Assembly (NCBI RefSeq): GCF_007833275.1 | Contig: NZ_CP042241.1 | Location: forward strand, 806,001 to 870,000 | Length of the DNA: 64,000 nucleotides | Reading direction: 5' to 3' | From: Salarchaeum sp. JOR-1 | GTDB lineage: Archaea > Halobacteriota > Halobacteria > Halobacteriales > Halobacteriaceae | Shown here: positions 13,651 through 22,051 of the stretch, piece by piece | Layout: each line of letters begins with the position of its first letter | How positions within the stretch are numbered: position 1 is the first letter of the stretch | Made by a program: the position numbers and the translations under genes | Notes under the pieces: model-generated | What the model was told of the DNA's origin: nothing | What the model saw: only the letters and a program-made list of their open reading frames with translations | Databases searched by the model: none

Positions 13651-14391
13651 ATGGACTCTCCCCGAACTGCGGCGTTCGTCGGCACCGTCGGCGGCGCGGG
13701 CACCACCCGCGCGTGCCTCGAAACCGGCGCACGCCTCGCCGCCGCCGACCGCGACACGCTCGTCCTCGACCTCGATTTCGACACGCAGGGTCTCGCCCGG
13801 CACGTCCGCGGCGACATCGACGGCGACACGACTGCGCTTCTCACTGATTCCGACATCGCGCTCGCGGACGCCCGTCACGACCGCGCGCTGGACGCGCCGG
13901 GCCGCCTCGCGCTCGCTCCCGCCCACGCGCCCTTCGGTCGCGTTGCGGCCGCGAAGACGGCGGACGCCGCACAGCGACTCGACACCGTCCTCGACGCGGC
14001 GCTCGCGGACTTCGACCACGTCCTCCTCGACACGCCGACGGTCGCCTCCAACCCCGCCGTCGCCGCGGTGACGGACGCCGACCGCGTCGCGCTCGTCTTC
14101 CCCGGGACGCCGCGCGGAACCGACGCCACCGCCCGAGAACGCGGCCGCCTCGCCGACGTTGGTGCGAGCGCCCACGCCCTCGTCGCCACCCGAACTACGC
14201 TGGAGGCCGCGCCGCCGGACGCCGACCGCGCGGTTCCCGACCTCGCGGGCGAACCGGTCGGCGTCGCCGCCACCCCCGGAACGAGCGCCGCACGGGCCGC
14301 TGGACTGCTCGCGGAGACGCTGTTCGACCTCGAACTCGACCACGAAGAACCCGCTGGTCGGTTTGACGCGCTCCGCCGCCGGCTACCGTAG
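13651..14391 (+). CDS. ParA/MinD-like protein with a lysine-less P-loop
   Basis: The 246-residue chain has the overall ParA/MinD plan: N-terminal P-loop region, DLDFDTQG (switch I position), HVLLDTPT (Walker B position) and VALVFPGTPRG. At residues 13-19 the family K-G-G-x-G-K-T is replaced by V-G-G-A-G-T-T, so both the signature and the Walker lysine are absent. ATP hydrolysis is therefore doubtful (inference). A canonical MinD-type protein is encoded 1.4 kb downstream at 15813. The start ATG lies 51 bases after the HIT gene. The stop overlaps the convergent 14383 gene by nine bases. Confidence 0.8.
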   Translation: MDSPRTAAFVGTVGGAGTTRACLETGARLAAADRDTLVLDLDFDTQGLARHVRGDIDGDTTALLTDSDIALADARHDRALDAPGRLALAPAHAPFGRVAAAKTADAAQRLDTVLDAALADFDHVLLDTPTVASNPAVAAVTDADRVALVFPGTPRGTDATARERGRLADVGASAHALVATRTTLEAAPPDADRAVPDLAGEPVGVAATPGTSAARAAGLLAETLFDLELDHEEPAGRFDALRRRLP

Positions 14392-14829
14392 GAACTCGCC
14401 GTCCACGACTGCCCGCGCCCCCGGGAGCGGGTCGTGGGCTTCGACGAACGCGCCGAGCGCGAACTCGTGTTCGCTCGCGCCCGTCAACGCGAGCGCGTCC
14501 GACCGCGTCAGTTCGCCGGCGAGCCAGTCCGCCACGATTTCGCGAGCGAGCGGCGAGAGCGGCGTGAGGCCGTCTACGCCGAGCAGGTGGAGGGTTTTTG
14601 CGCCCGCGACCGGTGCGACGCCGGCGGCGAGCGCGGCGGTCTCGACGCTCCCGCCGTCGTAGTACGTATCGAGCAGCAGCGCGGCCGTCGACGCGTCGCA
14701 AGGCAGACCGTCCGCGAACTCGCGGAGGCGCTCTGTGAGCGCGCGCTCCGTCCCGTCGACGGTCGTGGGCCCGCGCTCGCGCTGGGTGGCTGTCACCTCC
14801 AGTCCCGCCGCGATGTCCGACAGCGCCAT
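14383..14829 (-). CDS. Small protein of unknown function beside tfb
   Basis: The product has 148 residues starting MALSDIAAGLEVTATQ at the ATG at 14829. It is predicted helical, with two segments that could be helix-turn-helix-like (STAALLLDTYYDGGSVETAA and LTRSDALALTGASEHEFALG), but the match is weak. No cysteines are grouped and no membrane helix is present. It is divergent from the TFB gene across a region with two palindromes and convergent with the ParA-like gene. A DNA-binding or regulatory role is a guess from context only. Confidence 0.7.
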   Translation of the reverse strand: MALSDIAAGLEVTATQRERGPTTVDGTERALTERLREFADGLPCDASTAALLLDTYYDGGSVETAALAAGVAPVAGAKTLHLLGVDGLTPLSPLAREIVADWLAGELTRSDALALTGASEHEFALGAFVEAHDPLPGARAVVDGEFLR

Positions 14830-14852
14830 ACCTCCACTCACTACCGCTTTCC

Positions 14853-14859
14853 TACATAA
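14853..14859 (-). promoter_or_regulatory. TATA-like box of the 14829 gene
   Basis: On the minus strand GTTATGT lies about 24-30 bases before the ATG at 14829. It is one side of the divergent promoter shared with tfb. Confidence 0.4.
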
Positions 14860-14901
14860 CGTTTACTCGGGAAAATACGACGGCGGCGGTGCGGTTCGCG
14901 G

Positions 14902-14926
14902 GAACGTCACGGTTACCGGGACGTTC
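14902..14926. promoter_or_regulatory. 25-bp near-perfect palindrome
   Basis: Twelve-base arms around a single central T (14914) have only one mismatch (14909/14919). The outer arms are GAACGTC and GACGTTC, and the centre is CGGTTACCG. It lies between the two divergent core promoters and upstream of both TATA boxes, which suggests a protein-binding operator or, given the ParA/MinD-like genes nearby, a parS-like site (inference). Confidence 0.6.
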
Positions 14927-14937
14927 ATCGCGGCGTC

Positions 14938-14956
14938 TCGGGGGTCGAACCCCCGA
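14938..14956. promoter_or_regulatory. 19-bp palindrome
   Basis: Eight-base arms TCGGGGGT and ACCCCCGA flank a 3-base centre. Its midpoint (14947) lies 33 bp from the midpoint of the 25-bp palindrome, about three helical turns, so both could be bound on the same DNA face. It superficially resembles a tRNA T-arm, but no tRNA body is present. Confidence 0.5.
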
Positions 14957-14966
14957 TTCCGCGCTC

Positions 14967-14976
14967 GTTTAAATAC
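14967..14976 (+). promoter_or_regulatory. TATA box of the tfb gene
   Basis: GTTTAAATAC lies 25-34 bases before the ATG at 15001, a typical haloarchaeal core promoter position. Confidence 0.5.
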
Positions 14977-15000: not shown

Positions 15001-15831
15001 ATGAGTCGAAGTTGCCCCGAATGCCAGGGTTCGCTCGCCACCGAACGTATCGAGACCGTCTGCACCGAGTGCGGGCTGGTCGTCGCCGACGACCCCCTCG
15101 ACCGCGGGCCGGAGTGGCGGGCGTGCGACGCCGACGAACGCGAACGTACCGGCGCGCCGCTCACGCGCTCCCGTCACGACCGCGGGCTCTCCACCGAAAT
15201 CGGCCGCAGCACGCGCGTGAAGGGACGCAAGCGCCGCCGGCTCGCGCGGATGCGCCGCCAGCACGACCGCGCCCGCATCGCGTCGAAGACTGACCGGAAC
15301 AAGGTGTACGCGTTCACCGAGATCCGCCGCGTCGTCTCGCAGTTGTCGCTCCCGTACAGCGTCCGCGATCAGGCGTGCGCGCTGTTCTCGTCCGCCCAGG
15401 ACGAATCCCTGTTGCGCGGGCGGAGTCTCGAGGGATTCGCGGCCGCGGCGGTCTACGCCGTCTGCCGCACGAACAGCGTCGCTCGAACGGTCGGGGAAGT
15501 CGTCGCTGTCGCGCGCGCCGACCGGAACGAACTCCGCGCCGCCTACGCCGCGATGAACCGCGATCTCGGTCTCCCCGTCGGCCCTATCGACCCCCGCGAG
15601 TACCTCCCGCGATTCGCCACCGAACTCGCCCTCCCACCCGCGATCGAACGCCGCGCCCGCGCCCTCCTCGACGACCTCACGGTTGGCGGGAAGAACCCGA
15701 GCGGGGTCGCCGCCGCCTGCCTCTACGCCGCCGCCCGCGACACCGACCACGCCGTCACGCAGGCCGACGCCGCCGCAGTCGCGGACGTGACGCCCGTCAC
15801 CCTCCGCAGCACCTACCGCGCGCTCGACTGA
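15001..15831 (+). CDS. tfb: Transcription initiation factor IIB (TFB paralogue, short)
   Basis: TFB bridges TBP on the TATA box and RNA polymerase. The 276 residues contain an N-terminal zinc ribbon (C5, C8, C21, C24), a basic linker (VKGRKRRRLARMRRQ) and two cyclin repeats (about 100-185 and 195-276). Standard haloarchaeal TFBs run to about 310-330 residues, so the linker or C-terminus is shortened and this may be a specialised paralogue (inference). The ATG at 15001 follows a GTG directly; a TATA box sits 25-34 bases upstream. The stop overlaps the convergent MinD-type gene by 19 bases. Confidence 0.92.
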   Translation: MSRSCPECQGSLATERIETVCTECGLVVADDPLDRGPEWRACDADERERTGAPLTRSRHDRGLSTEIGRSTRVKGRKRRRLARMRRQHDRARIASKTDRNKVYAFTEIRRVVSQLSLPYSVRDQACALFSSAQDESLLRGRSLEGFAAAAVYAVCRTNSVARTVGEVVAVARADRNELRAAYAAMNRDLGLPVGPIDPREYLPRFATELALPPAIERRARALLDDLTVGGKNPSGVAAACLYAAARDTDHAVTQADAAAVADVTPVTLRSTYRALD

Positions 15832-16493
15832 ACCCGCGCCGCGAGCCGGCGGAACGCCCCGCTCGCGTCCGAACCCGGATGCGACAGCGCCACGGGTACA
15901 CCGCGCCCGCCCGCCGTCGCGACCGCACGCCGCTCCGGTATTCGAACCACCGGCCCGCCGAACGTCCGCTCGTACGCCCCCTTGGATCCATCGCCCTCCA
16001 CCGTCTCTCTCCCGCTCGTCCGATTGAGTGCCACGGCGGCGAGGCCGGCGTCGAGCTCCCGCGCGAGCTCCCGCGTCCTGAGCGCGTCCGCGAGCGCCGG
16101 CGGCGCGGGCGTCGTCACGAGCACGCAGGCGTCCGCCGCTGCGAGCGGCGCGCCCACGGCCGCGTTCAACCCTGCCGGGCAGTCCACCACCACCGCGCCG
16201 TACTCGTCTTCGACCGCCGCGAGCGCGTCCGCGATGCGCCCGAGGTCGCAGGCCCGCGCGCCGCCGAGCGACCGCCCGCAGGGCAGAATCCGCACCGCGC
16301 CGTCCTCGCGCACCGCCTCCACGGCAGTCGCGCGGCTCGCGAGTACGTCGTGGAAATCGGGGCCGCGTGCGGTCGGCAGGTCGGCCATCGCGAGGTCGCC
16401 GTCCACCACCACTGCGTCGAGGAGCGCCGCGAGGTTGAACGCCGTCGTGGACTTCCCGACGCCGCCCTTCCCGCCGCAGACCGCGAGAATCAC
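15813..16493 (-). CDS. MinD/ParA-type ATPase (canonical P-loop)
   Basis: This deviant Walker-A ATPase has 226 residues. MILAVCGGKGGVGKST carries both the signature lysine (K9) and the Walker lysine (K14), followed by VVVDGDLAMADL (switch I) and VVVDCPAG (Walker B). VLVTTPAPPAL and VALNRT also match MinD/ParA proteins. No C-terminal amphipathic membrane-targeting helix is obvious. The GTG start at 16493 overlaps the preceding gene's TGA as GTGA, implying translational coupling. It is the last of a four-gene minus-strand operon. Target (chromosome, membrane or another cargo) unknown. Confidence 0.9.
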   Translation of the reverse strand: MILAVCGGKGGVGKSTTAFNLAALLDAVVVDGDLAMADLPTARGPDFHDVLASRATAVEAVREDGAVRILPCGRSLGGARACDLGRIADALAAVEDEYGAVVVDCPAGLNAAVGAPLAAADACVLVTTPAPPALADALRTRELARELDAGLAAVALNRTSGRETVEGDGSKGAYERTFGGPVVRIPERRAVATAGGRGVPVALSHPGSDASGAFRRLAARVQSSAR

Positions 16494-16945
16494 GCGTCCT
16501 CCCGAAGCCGGGCCGCGCGCTCCAGCGCCTCGCGCTCCCGGCCGGTCGGCCGCCCCTGTTGCTCCACGTCGTCCAGCCACGCCGTCACCGCCCTCGGTAC
16601 CGCGGGCCCGAGCGCGTCACGCGGCGGCCGCGGGTCGGCGAGGTCTCGCACCGGGTCGAGCCGATCCGGCGAGGAGCGTTGCTCGATGGGTTCGACGCGG
16701 ACGGGGTTCGGGTCGGGCGGTGCGGGCGTGGCGTACCCGACGCCGCGGCGCTCGCCGGGCGCGAGCACGGTCTCGTAGCCCGACGGACTCCACCCCCCGT
16801 CGGGAACGCCGTTCGTTCGTGGCGGCCACACCGGCCCGTCGAGCAGGTTCGTCACGCGGACGCCGCGCTCGCGCGCCGCGTCGTTCTCGACGAGCACCAT
16901 GACGAGCGTCACGTCCCCCCGGGTGGTTCGGGCGTCGTACTCCAT
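16490..16945 (-). CDS. Protein of unknown function, MinD operon
   Basis: The 151-residue product begins MEYDARTTRGDVTLVMVLVEND. Its first half looks like a small beta-sandwich (RGVRVTNLLDGPVWPP, then GYETVLAPGERRGVGYATPAPP). The second half is proline- and charge-rich and ends in a helix (TGREREALERAARLRED). The ATG at 16945 is preferred to an upstream reading with a low-quality N-terminus. It is coupled to the MinD-type gene by a GTGA overlap, so the two proteins are probably made together. No family function recognised. Confidence 0.75.
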   Translation of the reverse strand: MEYDARTTRGDVTLVMVLVENDAARERGVRVTNLLDGPVWPPRTNGVPDGGWSPSGYETVLAPGERRGVGYATPAPPDPNPVRVEPIEQRSSPDRLDPVRDLADPRPPRDALGPAVPRAVTAWLDDVEQQGRPTGREREALERAARLREDA

Positions 16946-16977: not shown

Positions 16978-17718
16978 TTAGAGGAGAATCACGGGCGCAT
17001 CGAGGCACGCTGCGGCCTGTCCCGGGTGGCGGAACGGGCCGTTCTCCACCACGACGGGTGCGGAGAGACGCGCGGCCCGCGCGGCGGCGAGCGCGCCCGG
17101 GTTCCAGCCGGGAACCGCCGCGTGCGCCCGTTCGACGAGCGGTCGCGCTCGCTCTGCGAGCGCCGAGGTTCGCCGCTCGGGATGGTTCCGCCGCGCGTCC
17201 GCTCGCCGCAGCCCCCGCTCGCGCTGGTCGCGCTCCCGGCGCAACCGCGTTTCAGCGGCGTTCAGGCGTTGTTCGGCGGCGACACGCTCCGTCTCCGCGT
17301 CCGTCAGTTCGAGCGTTGCTTGGCGGAGGTCGGCGGCGGCCTCGTCGGTCTCCGCGTCGATGTCGCGAAGGGCTTCGAGGCGACCGCTCGCGCGCTCCAC
17401 GCGCTCTCGCAGGGCAATCACGTCCGCCGTCGCCGCTGCGACCGCGCGCCGCTCGGCCGCTGCGTCCGTGGGTTGTGCGCCCGCGCTGGGTTCGAGATCG
17501 CGTGAGGCCGCGACCGCCGCGAGCGCGTCCGCATTCGGTCGGTCGGCCGTCGCGTTGAGGTGGCCGACGTGGCGGTGCGCGGGCCCGGGGCGGCGGCAGA
17601 CGACCCGCCGACTGTCGGGGTCGCGTATCTCGGTGAGGAGTCGGTGCGGGTCGACGTCGCGGCCGCGGAGGTCGAGCGCCCGCCCGCTCGCGCGAACGCC
17701 CGCGACGGCGAGCTTCAC
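16978..17718 (-). CDS. Coiled-coil protein, MinD operon
   Basis: The product has 246 residues. An N-terminal region (MKLAVAGVRASGRALDLRG and CRRPGPAHRHVGHLN) leads into a long Ala/Glu/Arg-rich coiled coil at about residues 85-185. A C-terminal region with SAPVVVENGPFRHPGQAAACLDAP follows. There is no membrane helix. The GTG start at 17718 overlaps the upstream gene's TGA as GTGA. A coiled coil in the same operon as a MinD-type ATPase suggests an adaptor or filament-associated role, which is inference only. Confidence 0.75.
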   Translation of the reverse strand: MKLAVAGVRASGRALDLRGRDVDPHRLLTEIRDPDSRRVVCRRPGPAHRHVGHLNATADRPNADALAAVAASRDLEPSAGAQPTDAAAERRAVAAATADVIALRERVERASGRLEALRDIDAETDEAAADLRQATLELTDAETERVAAEQRLNAAETRLRRERDQRERGLRRADARRNHPERRTSALAERARPLVERAHAAVPGWNPGALAAARAARLSAPVVVENGPFRHPGQAAACLDAPVILL

Positions 17719-18053
17719 AGGTTCGCGTCCCGCATCGCGTCCGTCGCCGGATGGGTCGTTCCCGCGCGGAACTTCGCGTACGGCGTGCTCGCGGACGTCC
17801 GGGACTCGTAGGCGTCAGCCGCGTTCCGAACGCGTTCGGGTGCGTCCCGGAATTCGTTCCACGGGCTGGTGCGTTCGACCTGCACGTCGCCGCCGTGTTT
17901 CGCGCGGAGGCGGAGCGCGAGAAACGCCCCGAGTTCGGTCTCCGCGAACAGCGCGGCGCGTCCGAACCGCCGCACGATCGTCTCGTCGTACGTTCCGCAC
18001 ATCGTCCGGAGCGTCTGTCGCGAACTCCGGGAGTACGTCACCACGAGCAGCAC
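17715..18053 (-). CDS. Small protein, first gene of the MinD operon
   Basis: The 112-residue chain begins MLLVVTYSRSSRQTLRTMCG from a GTG at 18053. It contains TSPWNEFRDAPERVRNAADAY in its centre and ends PYAKFRAGTTHPATDAMRDANL. No domain recognised. The start is uncertain because several GTGs lie close together. An AT-rich stretch (18066-18080, TTATTTTAATT on the minus strand) lies just upstream and may hold the operon promoter, although it sits slightly nearer than the usual 25-30 bases. Confidence 0.68.
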   Translation of the reverse strand: MLLVVTYSRSSRQTLRTMCGTYDETIVRRFGRAALFAETELGAFLALRLRAKHGGDVQVERTSPWNEFRDAPERVRNAADAYESRTSASTPYAKFRAGTTHPATDAMRDANL

Positions 18054-18088: not shown

Positions 18089-18370
18089 CTATCCGACGTG
18101 TTCGAGGTCGAACTCGGCGTCGTCGGCGTCGAGGAGGTCGTGAACGCGTTCGCGGGCCTCGGCCGCCGATTCGGCGACGACGACGAGGCCGTCCGCCCGC
18201 GCGTCCCCCCGCGCCCGGTACGCCGCCAGCCCGGATTCGGGTTCGAACTCCGTCGCGTAGGTTCGGAGCACGCCCAGCACGCGCTCTTCCATCCCGTCTA
18301 GGTCGATGTCGCCGTGCTCGTAGGCGGACAGGGCGTCCTCCACGTTTCGAAGTGCGCTGATTCTGTCCAT
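18089..18370 (-). CDS. Small acidic protein directly after mcm
   Basis: The product has 93 residues and is strongly acidic. MDRISALRNVEDALSAYEHGD and the following residues are helical, and the second half (DGLVVVAESAAEARERVHDLLDADDAEFDLEHVG) looks like a small alpha/beta unit. Its ATG abuts the mcm TAG with no intervening base, so it is certainly in the mcm transcript and may be translated by reinitiation. A replication-related role is suggested by context only. Confidence 0.78.
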   Translation of the reverse strand: MDRISALRNVEDALSAYEHGDIDLDGMEERVLGVLRTYATEFEPESGLAAYRARGDARADGLVVVAESAAEARERVHDLLDADDAEFDLEHVG

Positions 18371-21300
18371 CTACGTGGTTCGGAGGTGGCCCTGGCTCGG
18401 CTGGTACACCTCGCCCTTCTGTTTGAGCTTCTCTATCTCGTGTTCGGCCTTTGATACCTCCATGCCGACTTCCTCCGCACGGTCGAGTACTTCCTCGACG
18501 GGCGCTCCCTCCTCGAACTCCTCCTGGATCTCGCCGATGATGCTCCGGATGTTCTTCACGCGGTCGCGCTGGGTCTTCGACCGCCCCGTCTCCACGACGT
18601 CCGCGTCGAACTCGCCGGTCTCCGGATCGACGCCGATGTCCTGCAGGCAGGAGCGGACGATTTCGATGACGCGCTCGGCGTCCTCCCGCGTCACTTCGTC
18701 CGCTAACCGGACGCGCGCGGATGCTTCCGCGAGTCGCACGAGCGCCTCCAGCTGCCGGGCGGTCACGGGAACCGGCGAGTCCTCGCCCTGCCCCTCGGCG
18801 CGGAGGTCGACGTAGAAGTCCTCGATGGCCTGCCGCGCCTCCTCGCTCATGGTCGGGTAGACGTTCCGCCGCGAGTACGCGATATACTTCCGGAGGAGCT
18901 CGGGGTCGACAGCGGGCGCGACCTCCTCCGTCTGCTCCGCGACCTCTTCTTCGCTGAACTCGCTCGACGACACCTTCGAGCGCTGCGTGTTCAGTTCGCC
19001 CGCGTAGTTCGTCTGGAGGATGTGGCGCGCGAGCCGCGAGTCCTCCTCGGGGTCGGGCTTGTCCGTCACCGTGAAGATGAGGTCGAACCGCGAGACGAGC
19101 GCCGGTTCGAGGTCTATCTGCTCCCCGATGGGTTCGTACTGGTCGAACCGCCCGTACTTCGGGTTCGCCGCCCCCAAGAGACTGCACCGCGACTTGAGGG
19201 TGGCGTTGATACCCGCCTTCGACACCGAAATCTGCTGCTGTTCCAATGCCTCGTGCATCGCGGAGCGGTCGTCCGCCGCCATCTTGTCCAGTTCGTCCAC
19301 CGCCGCGATGCCCTGGTCGGCGAGCACGAGCGCGCCCGCTTCGAGCGTCCACTGCTGACCGTCGCCGAAGTCGTCCCGGACGGCGGCCGCAGTCAACCCC
19401 GCGGAACTACTCCCCTTCCCGGACGTGTACACCGACCGCGGCGCGATGTGCCGGATATAGGAGAGCAGCTGGGAGTTGTGTGAGACCACGTTGTTCGAGA
19501 GGTACGTGTGCGTTCCCTCGACTTCGAGGTCGTACACCCATTCCTCACTGGGTTCTACGGTCTCGATGGATTCGATGCGCTCCCACGACAGGTCATTCTC
19601 GGCGAGCGAGCGCAAGTCCTCGACCACGTCGGCGACGCCGAGACCGGTTTCTATCTCGTCCACGAGCGCACTCTGCGCGGCGGCCACGCGGCCGCCGTCG
19701 GGAACCGCGTCGTTTCGCTCGTAGTAGCTCACCATCGTCTGCTCTACGCCCATCTCGTCCGCGAGTGTCGCCTGCGAGACCCGGAGGTCGTCCCGTGCCG
19801 CGCTCACGTCGCTCCAGTCGCCGTCCTCTAATCGCCGTTTGGTCTCACGAAGCTCGTCGAGCCGCGCCTCGAACGCTCTCACGACTCGGGAGAGCGACGC
19901 GCGACTCGGGTTCCTGTCGCCGCGCTCGTAGTGCTGGTACGTCGACCGAGGGAGTCCGCACTCCGCCTGTGAGAGAAGGAGCGCTTCTCGTACCTCCCGG
20001 AGTCGGTCACCTATTTCGGGCACGACATCGGTGTTGGTGTTCGACGGTGTGTCCCCGAACTCGCGGGCCGCGTTCGCCTTCCGGTCGGTAACAAACCCGA
20101 CACGTTCCACGTACCGCTCGAAATCGTCACCGCTGATTCGGAGCCGATAGCTCCCGTTCTCTCGCGGGCGGAGGCTGGTGGTGACGCCGAACGCGAGCAG
20201 GAGCGACCGAACGCCATCCAGCAGTTTCCGGCTCATCGACGCCACGGTCAGTTCGCGCTGCGACGCGGAGACGTGGCCTTCGGAGTCCACGTACGCTCGC
20301 AGGAACTCGCGTTTCGTCTTCCGGGTCGCGTTCAGGATGGCGTCGGGGACGCGCTGGTTCGCCGAGCGTTCGAGTATTGCGGGTTCGAGGGTTTCGAGGA
20401 AACTGGCGAGTTCGCTCGCACTGCAGCGAACACGTTTCGCCGACGTTCCGGCTCGCTCGCCGTCGGTCGTGTGTTCGAGACCGAGCTCGTCGAGCGCGCG
20501 CTCTACATCCCGCAGTATCTCCTCGTCGGCGTTGGTCACGCGCACGTCACCGGTGTTGTCGTCTCGGAGTACGACGTGGCCTTCCGCGATAACGTAGCCG
20601 ACGAGGCGCGCGAGTGACGGGGTCCACGCGTCGGGGAGGTCGATGTGCGCTCCGCCCGGCGCGCGCGATTCGCGGTATTCGACGTCGAGCGCATCGTCGC
20701 CCGTGACAGGGAGTGTACGCGGTGCCGCGACGAACTCGCCTTCGCTGAGCGTGTCGGCGGTTCGAGCGACCGGCTGGCCCGCCGTTTGCGTGAACAGGGG
20801 GTGCGAGGGTGTGACTTCGAGTTCGGTTCCGCTCGCCGTTCGGATGCGATACATCCGCTCGGGGGCTTCGCGCTTCCAGACGCGGGTGGCGCGGCGCTCG
20901 GTGAGCCTGCCATCTGCAGCCATCGACGGAAGGGGGATGTCCGCGTCGTCCCACACGCCGTCGTCCACGGGCTTCGGGTCGTCGAGGTTCTCCTCGACGA
21001 GGTCTCGAATCGCGCGCTCGGAGCCGTCACCGAGAGTTACGCGAGTGTCTCCGTCGACGCACTTCCCCGTTCCGGGGTCTCCGATGAGGAGCATGTGGAG
21101 GTCGCCGCGGATGCGGGAGCCGTCCGGGAGGTGTTTCGTGACGCCGGAGAAGAGCTGGAGGAGCATCGCGAGTTTGGCCTGGCGGTGGCCGTAGATGGAG
21201 GGCGCGATGGAGTCCACCATCGTCTCGTAGATATCGGGATCCTGCGATATTTCGACGATGTCCTCCTTGTCGTCCTCGTTGATTTCCATGTCCTCGAACT

Positions 21301-22051
21301 CCTCGTCCTCGATTTCGATGAACGACCCCTCCATGTAGTGGTCGAAGACGGGGGAGTCGTTCTCGGTGTTCGAGTCGTCGAGGCGGAGGACGCCGGTGGC
21401 GGTGACGTGGTCGCCCGCGGTCACCCGCCCCGGGATGTCGTCCTCGATGTGGACGTCGATGGCCTGCGGCGTCTCCCCGCCGCTGAGGCCTTCGGGGCTC
21501 TCCTGGATGCGGAGCTTCTGGCTGTCCACGAACTCGGACTTCTCCGAGTCGAGCTGGAAGGGGCCCTGGCGTTCGCAGGACTCGCACTGGTAGGGTTCCT
21601 GGAAGCCGCCGTCGCCCTGCGGGACGTGCTGTTCGCTCCCGCAGCGCTGGCAGACGAACACGGCCGTCTGAATCTTTGGCTTCACGTCCGTCGCCTTCCG
21701 CACGATCCCCTGCACGGCGACGAACGTGTTCATGTGTTCGGCGCGCAGACGCCGGATTTCCGTGGCCTCGCCGAGGTTGCGGACGCGGACGTGCGCCTGT
21801 CCGAGCGACACGTCGATGGGGAGGTCGTAGACTCGGAGGGCTTCCTCCGCGGCCTCTTGGAGTTGGTCGGGGTGGCGGACGAAGTCCTCCGCGAAGTCGG
21901 GGTCGAACTGGTAGAGGTCGTCCCAGTCGACCACGAGTGACTTCTTGTCCCGCGGGTACTGCCGCGCGAGCGAGCCGACCTCGTCGCTGTAGTACCGACG
22001 GAAGAACGTCTCGAAGCGCTCCGTGAGTTCCTGGTCCTGGGACTGCGCCAT
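18371..22051 (-). CDS. mcm: Replicative helicase MCM, interrupted by an intein
   Basis: MCM is the hexameric 3'-5' DNA helicase of the replication fork. The precursor has 1226 residues, of which 697 are extein, the usual size. The N-terminal domain carries a zinc motif (C134, C137, C156, C159). The Walker A motif GDPGTGK/S is split after K330 by an intein of 529 residues, and the chain resumes at S860. After it come the Walker B motif (VDELDKM), the SRFD arginine finger and a C-terminal winged helix. Splicing is required for ATPase activity. The ATG at 22051 starts MAQSQDQEL, with a TATA-like element about 30 bases upstream. Confidence 0.97.
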   Translation of the reverse strand: MAQSQDQELTERFETFFRRYYSDEVGSLARQYPRDKKSLVVDWDDLYQFDPDFAEDFVRHPDQLQEAAEEALRVYDLPIDVSLGQAHVRVRNLGEATEIRRLRAEHMNTFVAVQGIVRKATDVKPKIQTAVFVCQRCGSEQHVPQGDGGFQEPYQCESCERQGPFQLDSEKSEFVDSQKLRIQESPEGLSGGETPQAIDVHIEDDIPGRVTAGDHVTATGVLRLDDSNTENDSPVFDHYMEGSFIEIEDEEFEDMEINEDDKEDIVEISQDPDIYETMVDSIAPSIYGHRQAKLAMLLQLFSGVTKHLPDGSRIRGDLHMLLIGDPGTGKCVDGDTRVTLGDGSERAIRDLVEENLDDPKPVDDGVWDDADIPLPSMAADGRLTERRATRVWKREAPERMYRIRTASGTELEVTPSHPLFTQTAGQPVARTADTLSEGEFVAAPRTLPVTGDDALDVEYRESRAPGGAHIDLPDAWTPSLARLVGYVIAEGHVVLRDDNTGDVRVTNADEEILRDVERALDELGLEHTTDGERAGTSAKRVRCSASELASFLETLEPAILERSANQRVPDAILNATRKTKREFLRAYVDSEGHVSASQRELTVASMSRKLLDGVRSLLLAFGVTTSLRPRENGSYRLRISGDDFERYVERVGFVTDRKANAAREFGDTPSNTNTDVVPEIGDRLREVREALLLSQAECGLPRSTYQHYERGDRNPSRASLSRVVRAFEARLDELRETKRRLEDGDWSDVSAARDDLRVSQATLADEMGVEQTMVSYYERNDAVPDGGRVAAAQSALVDEIETGLGVADVVEDLRSLAENDLSWERIESIETVEPSEEWVYDLEVEGTHTYLSNNVVSHNSQLLSYIRHIAPRSVYTSGKGSSSAGLTAAAVRDDFGDGQQWTLEAGALVLADQGIAAVDELDKMAADDRSAMHEALEQQQISVSKAGINATLKSRCSLLGAANPKYGRFDQYEPIGEQIDLEPALVSRFDLIFTVTDKPDPEEDSRLARHILQTNYAGELNTQRSKVSSSEFSEEEVAEQTEEVAPAVDPELLRKYIAYSRRNVYPTMSEEARQAIEDFYVDLRAEGQGEDSPVPVTARQLEALVRLAEASARVRLADEVTREDAERVIEIVRSCLQDIGVDPETGEFDADVVETGRSKTQRDRVKNIRSIIGEIQEEFEEGAPVEEVLDRAEEVGMEVSKAEHEIEKLKQKGEVYQPSQGHLRTT
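19475..21061 (-). mobile_element. Intein in MCM Walker A, with DOD endonuclease and HTH segments
   Basis: This in-frame protein intron has 529 residues. It begins with C1 (CVDGDTRV, block A). Block B is LEVTPSHPLF with H87. Blocks F and G end in VYDLEVEGTHTYLSNN and VVSHN, and the next extein residue is S, so all splicing residues are present. The central endonuclease has LVGYVIAEG (acid E160) and LRAYVDSEG (acid D259), the two LAGLIDADG motifs. Residues about 350-400 and 423-470 resemble two XRE-type helix-turn-helix units (SQAECGLPRSTYQHYERG and SQATLADEMGVEQTMVSYYERN). Codon use is visibly less GC-biased than the extein. It probably spreads by homing into intein-less mcm alleles. Confidence 0.93.

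Follow-up and report, generated by a model that had tools for sequence, protein, structure and literature searches.

The window analysed here, a stretch of 64,000 nucleotides from Salarchaeum sp. JOR-1, contains a divergent promoter shared by tfb, the gene of a general transcription factor B, and by the gene of a protein of the family DUF7858, flanked by genes of MinD/ParA-fold proteins and further DUF families (Table 1). Reading the sequence bore out the two palindromes at the coordinates originally predicted for this promoter. Dyad 1 reads GAACGTCACGGT-T-ACCGGGACGTTC, with 11 of 12 positions paired around a centre at 14914, and dyad 2 reads TCGGGGGT-CGA-ACCCCCGA, with 8 of 8 pairs around a centre at 14947, 33 bp from dyad 1. 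The prediction had placed both dyads upstream of both TATA boxes, which needs amending for dyad 2, as it sits between dyad 1 and the TATA box of tfb. The DUF7858 reading frame, previously begun at a GTG at 14841, has its most likely start in the ATG at 14829. In Haloferax volcanii, HVO_0226 is a TFB (PMC7714728) and minD1 is HVO_0225 (PMC11588486); judging from the order of the locus tags, HVO_0226 is probably the counterpart of tfb, adjoining minD1. The DUF7858 gene of H. volcanii is probably HVO_0227. Further along the window, the gene of the MCM helicase (18371-22051) carries an apparent intein-like insert (CVDGDTRVTLG...VVSHNS), with stretches resembling Cro/C1-type helix-turn-helix (HTH) sequences.

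Table 1. Features of the tfb/DUF7858 locus, in positions of the window
Feature	Position	Strand	Description
Lysine-less MinD/ParA-fold protein	13651..14391	+	Co-occurs with DUF7858
DUF7858 gene	14383..14829	-	148 aa, all-helical, HTH-type units; proposed dyad 1 binder
Probable DUF7858 TATA box	14852..14860	-	GTTATGTAG; about 54 bp from the dyad centre; position as in orthologues
Dyad 1	14902..14926	.	Proposed 25-bp palindromic operator, local form of GAACSTACCGGTNACCGGTASGTTC; sequence and position conserved, half-sites co-vary
Spacer, dyad 1 to tfb TATA box	14927..14967	+	41 bp; A/T and G/C stretches alternate about every 10 bp
Dyad 2	14938..14956	.	Palindrome inside the spacer, not conserved as a palindrome
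tfb TATA box	14968..14975	+	TTTAAATA; first base 54 bp from the dyad 1 centre
tfb	15001..15831	+	General transcription factor B, zinc ribbon and two TFIIB repeats; proposed target, probably leaderless
MinD1-type ATPase	15813..16490	-	Canonical Walker A
DUF7857	16490..16945	-	Present in many genomes without the dyad
DUF7856	16978..17718	-	Co-occurs with DUF7858
DUF7855	17715..18053	-	Neighbour
DUF7854	18089..18370	-	Neighbour

As bare palindromes, both dyads are unremarkable in this GC-rich window: in a palindrome scan of the 64 kb, 24 alignments equalled or exceeded the score of dyad 1, and 82 reached a score of at least 8, the level of dyad 2. Dyad 1 is exceptional by its conservation and its position. 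Its symmetric pattern has a sole exact match in its own 2.5-Mb genome, where two further places match with two mismatches, and in most relatives of the same family the same 25-bp dyad stands at a constant place before a tfb orthologue (64-97% identical). Allowing up to three mismatches, we found the family consensus, GAACSTACCGGTNACCGGTASGTTC, in 102 of the order's 293 genomes, as a single match in nearly all of them; the reversed consensus, used as a control, matched none of the 293. Variants beyond three mismatches are present in further genomes. Dyad 1 is thus not a repeat scattered at random through genomes. We took 80 DUF7858 loci in named genomes, 78 of which had a readable nearby tfb; in the other two, the tfb promoter fell in an assembly gap (L089) or no tfb was found (L135). 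The comparison with other haloarchaea, proposed along with the original prediction, placed dyad 1 upstream of tfb in 78 of 78 readable loci, usually in the divergent promoter shared with DUF7858. The same comparison went against dyad 2, as no palindrome is kept at its position across loci; even the sister genome, with a TFB of 97% identity, forms only 5 of 9 pairs. Dyad 2 was accordingly rejected as a conserved site.

The two halves of dyad 1 also change in concert. Mirrored positions were complementary in 62 of 73 sequences at distance 8 from the centre (33.9 after shuffling) and in 56 at distance 11 (33.5 after shuffling); these shuffles ignore relatedness, so that kinship inflates the values, related genomes not being independent. 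A direct view of half-site covariation is given by Halomarina, in which both arms have changed together, to GTGTCGGT/ACCGACAC. Judged by its conservation across genomes, dyad 1 is a real and functional element. Two genomes of one genus (G047 and G075) hold six dyads each (L184-L195), with four extra sites shared by position. These shared sites lie near copper-type ATPase/Lrp, uracil-DNA glycosylase-like, metallo-hydrolase-like and AIR-synthase-like genes (named by eye) and are possibly an expanded regulon; among the extra dyads, a TATA box near 54 bp is limited to L192 and, less clearly, L191.

The placement of dyad 1 relates it to both core promoters, between which it is symmetrically set. 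On the tfb side, 56 loci have a clear TATA box; its first base lies 54 bp from the dyad centre in 51 of them and 53 or 55 bp away in the rest, although the distance from the TATA box to the ATG mostly varies, from 31 to 37. Dyad 1 thus keeps its sequence and also its distance from a core promoter element, as an operator would. On the DUF7858 side, the distance is 53-55 bp in 38 of 63 loci and 41-42, 66-67 or 75-76 bp in most others, which departs from the main value by roughly one or two helical turns in either direction. Because the TATA-to-ATG distance is short, both promoters are probably leaderless.

The spacer between dyad 1 and the tfb TATA box has a structure of its own. None of 5000 column permutations reached its 10-bp period of A/T and G/C stretches, and its phase coherence was 0.94 over 63 spacers against 0.32 over 47 other haloarchaeal promoters. 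The phasing amplitude was 0.25, compared with 0.06 in each of two controls, generic promoters and the tfb promoters of genomes without DUF7858; in the latter, the 10-bp phasing is absent. Such a phased spacer is probably bendable. Dyad 2 falls on one beat of this pattern and is the local form of its G/C-A/T-G/C phasing.

Two kinds of comparison show with which gene the dyad travels. Where tfb and DUF7858 have been separated, the dyad stays with tfb: eight loci with other genes between the two have it at tfb and none at DUF7858, and the same holds for a further genome (G035), in which 334 kb separate the two genes and the dyad reads CCACCTACCGTTTATCGGTAGGTAA. Across these nine rearrangements, dyad 1 thus behaves as expected of an operator of tfb. 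Its presence, on the other hand, follows DUF7858. The tfb of interest was found in 241 of 293 genomes and DUF7858 in 168, and none of 33 tfb promoters from genomes without DUF7858 has the dyad, one of them (L215) showing a decayed remnant, GAACGTACCGCTAACTGGTACGCGG. Four families (f4, f5, f6 and f8) each hold both states, and the dyad follows DUF7858 in every one; in f8, only the genera g81 and g85 have DUF7858, both with the dyad. Among the DUF7858 genomes of the contrast set there is one exception, G013, in which the dyad is broken and DUF7858 is divergent, with its first helix-turn-helix altered and several near-invariant residues changed. DUF7858 and its proposed site therefore co-occur. 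The earlier idea of a control site for a specialised TFB gains from dyad 1, with its fixed TATA spacing, its persistence at tfb when the pair is split and its loss with DUF7858, and it does not extend to dyad 2.

The same tfb has been interrupted in two genera. An integrase-bearing element (~8 kb and ~5.5 kb) splits it in G010 (genus of Halobacterium) and G004 (genus of Halarchaeum), at loci L257-L260, at the same codons in both (ERTGAPL / SPLTRSRHD). The cyclin-repeat core comes to lie far downstream of the zinc ribbon, which keeps the dyad promoter; integration thus seems to be targeted to this tfb gene.

DUF7858 has properties that would suit a DNA-binding protein. Its structure model is all-helical (pLDDT 84.8), with two helix triplets in succession (residues 46-82 and 93-131) in an HTH-type order. 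Weak Pfam HTH hits (HTH_28, HTH_7, HTH_Tnp_1, LacI) fall mostly on residues 47-88, and in the presumed recognition helix A77, K78, L80 and H81 are conserved at 89-100%. A fold search of the PDB gave no significant neighbour (best E 0.83); the weak hits include many HTH DNA-binding proteins, as well as the DNA-binding domains of ParB, KorB and Spo0J (E about 1-4, not significant). Against Pfam, DUF7858 matched only PF25257 and no ParB family. The predicted HTH assignment thus comes from helix order and weak profile hits. In the open literature searched, we found no paper that treats DUF7858 by name and no haloarchaeal paper that contains the operator core.

Three gene products, those of 14383 (DUF7858), 16490 (DUF7857) and 16978 (DUF7856), had been named as candidates for binding the palindromes, and the comparison favours DUF7858 among them, as it shows HTH signals and the dyad is lost with it. 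DUF7857 was rejected, being present in many genomes without the dyad. The case of DUF7856 is closer: it was found in none of 33 genomes without DUF7858 and in 12 of 13 with it, and so co-occurs with the dyad, and DUF7858 is favoured over it. The MinD/ParA-like protein encoded next to DUF7858 is found in 170 of 293 genomes, nearly the same set as DUF7858, even where the two genes are far apart. It has a MinD/ParA fold (best PDB match Pyrococcus MinD 1ion, E 6e-9), and its surveyed orthologues have no P-loop lysines, the conserved motif being GATGGAGTTR. We rejected this pseudo-ATPase as the binder: G250 has the MinD-like gene and tfb and lacks both DUF7858 and the dyad, and therefore the MinD-like protein alone does not maintain the dyad. 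MinD1 was set aside as well. In Natronomonas-type loci (L123, L129, L147, L151 and L153), no MinD1 stands between tfb and DUF7857, and the other neighbours and the dyad are kept. Twelve dyad-less genomes were checked, and in these none of MinD1, DUF7857 and DUF7856 was found as a neighbour of tfb; therefore, much of the neighbourhood has been gained or lost together. DUF7858 is not singled out by co-occurrence alone, because the presence of DUF7856 and that of the MinD-like protein follow the dyad nearly as closely.

From these sequence comparisons, we consider DUF7858 the probable binder of dyad 1, on which it would sit as a dimer and control both tfb and its own gene. Dyad 1 would be the operator of the divergent tfb/DUF7858 promoter, and the dimer would contact both half-sites symmetrically through a helix-turn-helix with the conserved recognition-helix residues AAKTLH. 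Bound about five helical turns from each TATA box, DUF7858 would control tfb, the target that is kept under selection, together with its own gene. That DUF7858 would act from one face of the DNA on the complex of TBP, TFB and RNA polymerase is suggested by the constancy of the 54-bp distance, by the phased spacer and by the way in which the distance to the DUF7858 TATA box shifts in helical turns. Because the dyad overlaps neither BRE, TATA nor start site, this argument from position inclines us slightly towards an activator rather than a repressor. The MinD/ParA-like protein and DUF7856 would be the probable partners that set the activity of DUF7858. Direct binding, dimerisation, the direction of the effect and the roles of the partners are what we infer here. 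A more tentative and wider proposal, possible in our estimate and not a favoured one, is that one TFB paralogue has its own, deeply conserved switch, in which a new HTH family, DUF7858, would act at a single-copy operator through a helically phased spacer. Governed by a nucleotide-binding-deficient MinD/ParA relative and by DUF7856, it may turn a cell-state signal of the MinD-type module into a change of basal factor.

The same protein on the same operator might instead be a repressor that shuts off tfb and itself by negative autoregulation, for example by looping or stiffening the phased spacer. Autorepressors commonly sit symmetrically between divergent genes, as dyad 1 does, and TATA-like boxes persist in the tfb promoters where DUF7858 is missing, so that tfb can probably be expressed without it. 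Against repression, the dyad covers no TATA box, BRE or start on either side, and regulators that contact the initiation complex more typically show such a strict distance of about five turns; we regard this reading as rather unlikely.

Less probable still is that the dyad is bound by an unrelated regulator or by some other member of the co-inherited module, DUF7856 for instance, with DUF7858 a neighbour that is lost along with it. The distribution of DUF7856 given above and the co-occurrence of the MinD-like protein with DUF7858 in about 170 of 293 genomes would agree with such a binder. It is opposed by the dyad-less G250 with its MinD-like gene, by the Natronomonas-type loci that keep the dyad and not MinD1, by the DUF7857 genes of dyad-less genomes, by the pairing of a divergent DUF7858 with a broken dyad in G013, and by the HTH signals of DUF7858 itself.

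A parS-like centromere, on which DUF7858 would load at a single chromosomal palindrome to be moved by the MinD/ParA-like protein, as in ParABS or SegAB, is very improbable. Most species with a match have one palindrome per genome, a MinD/ParA-fold partner co-occurs, and ParB, KorB and Spo0J are among the non-significant fold hits of DUF7858. Yet the dyad is locked 53-55 bp from one gene's TATA box and has remained beside tfb in nine cases of separation, the MinD-like orthologues surveyed have no P-loop lysines, DUF7858 matches no ParB family, and the whole set is missing from many haloarchaea. The centromere-like site of the original prediction is therefore not supported; what survives of its ParA-type partner is the almost perfect co-occurrence of a lysine-less MinD/ParA-fold protein with the HTH-type DUF7858. 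That dyad 1 is a chance palindrome or a mobile repeat has next to no probability, for although bare palindromes of its type are not rare in the window, its conservation across the order, fixed spacing, single copy and zero control matches refute chance, which is still the best reading of dyad 2 as a palindrome.

The proposed DUF7858 system resembles several known ones in part. ParABS and SegAB combine a ParA-fold protein, an HTH-type protein and a palindromic DNA site, and counterparts of all three, the HTH-type one by prediction, are present here. In contrast to them, the site is locked to one promoter, the ATPase motif is degenerate and no ParB domain was matched; of the ParABS features tested, the locus has the MinD/ParA fold of the motor-like protein and lacks two, an active deviant Walker A with lysines and a ParB-type protein. 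FleQ/FleN-type pairs consist of a DNA-binding regulator and a MinD-family co-regulator, and here, too, a transcription regulator would be co-inherited with a MinD/ParA-fold protein, although this one is without P-loop lysines, and DUF7858 does not belong to the AAA+ enhancer-binding proteins. The proposed system would work like archaeal one-component HTH regulators such as TrmB, Lrp/AsnC, RosR and CsmR, in which a small HTH-type protein likewise goes with a palindrome that lies ahead of BRE/TATA in haloarchaeal promoters. None of these families is matched by DUF7858, whose proposed target is the gene of a general transcription factor. CsmR of H. volcanii has the motif TATCA-N4-TGATA and 65 associated genes (PMC13286277); its motif differs from that of dyad 1, for which reason we rejected it as the binder, and most genomes with the dyad have a single site, at the TFB gene.

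Haloarchaeal TFB paralogues act as global regulators (PMC4230888, PMC2121645), and the target of dyad 1 would be one member of such a multiple-TFB network. In the literature searched, no TFB gene was found to have a conserved operator and regulator dedicated to it. Haloarchaeal TFB sets have been likened to sigma factors, and the control of individual TFB genes is poorly known. Dyad 1 is most likely a control site of DUF7858, and this reading of conserved sequence and position predicts, for one TFB gene, a specific regulator, an exact site, a spacing rule and likely partners, all testable in Haloferax volcanii. It would be the first role proposed for DUF7858, and it suggests a regulatory rather than a partition role for a lysine-less MinD/ParA relative that more than half of the sampled haloarchaeal genomes carry.
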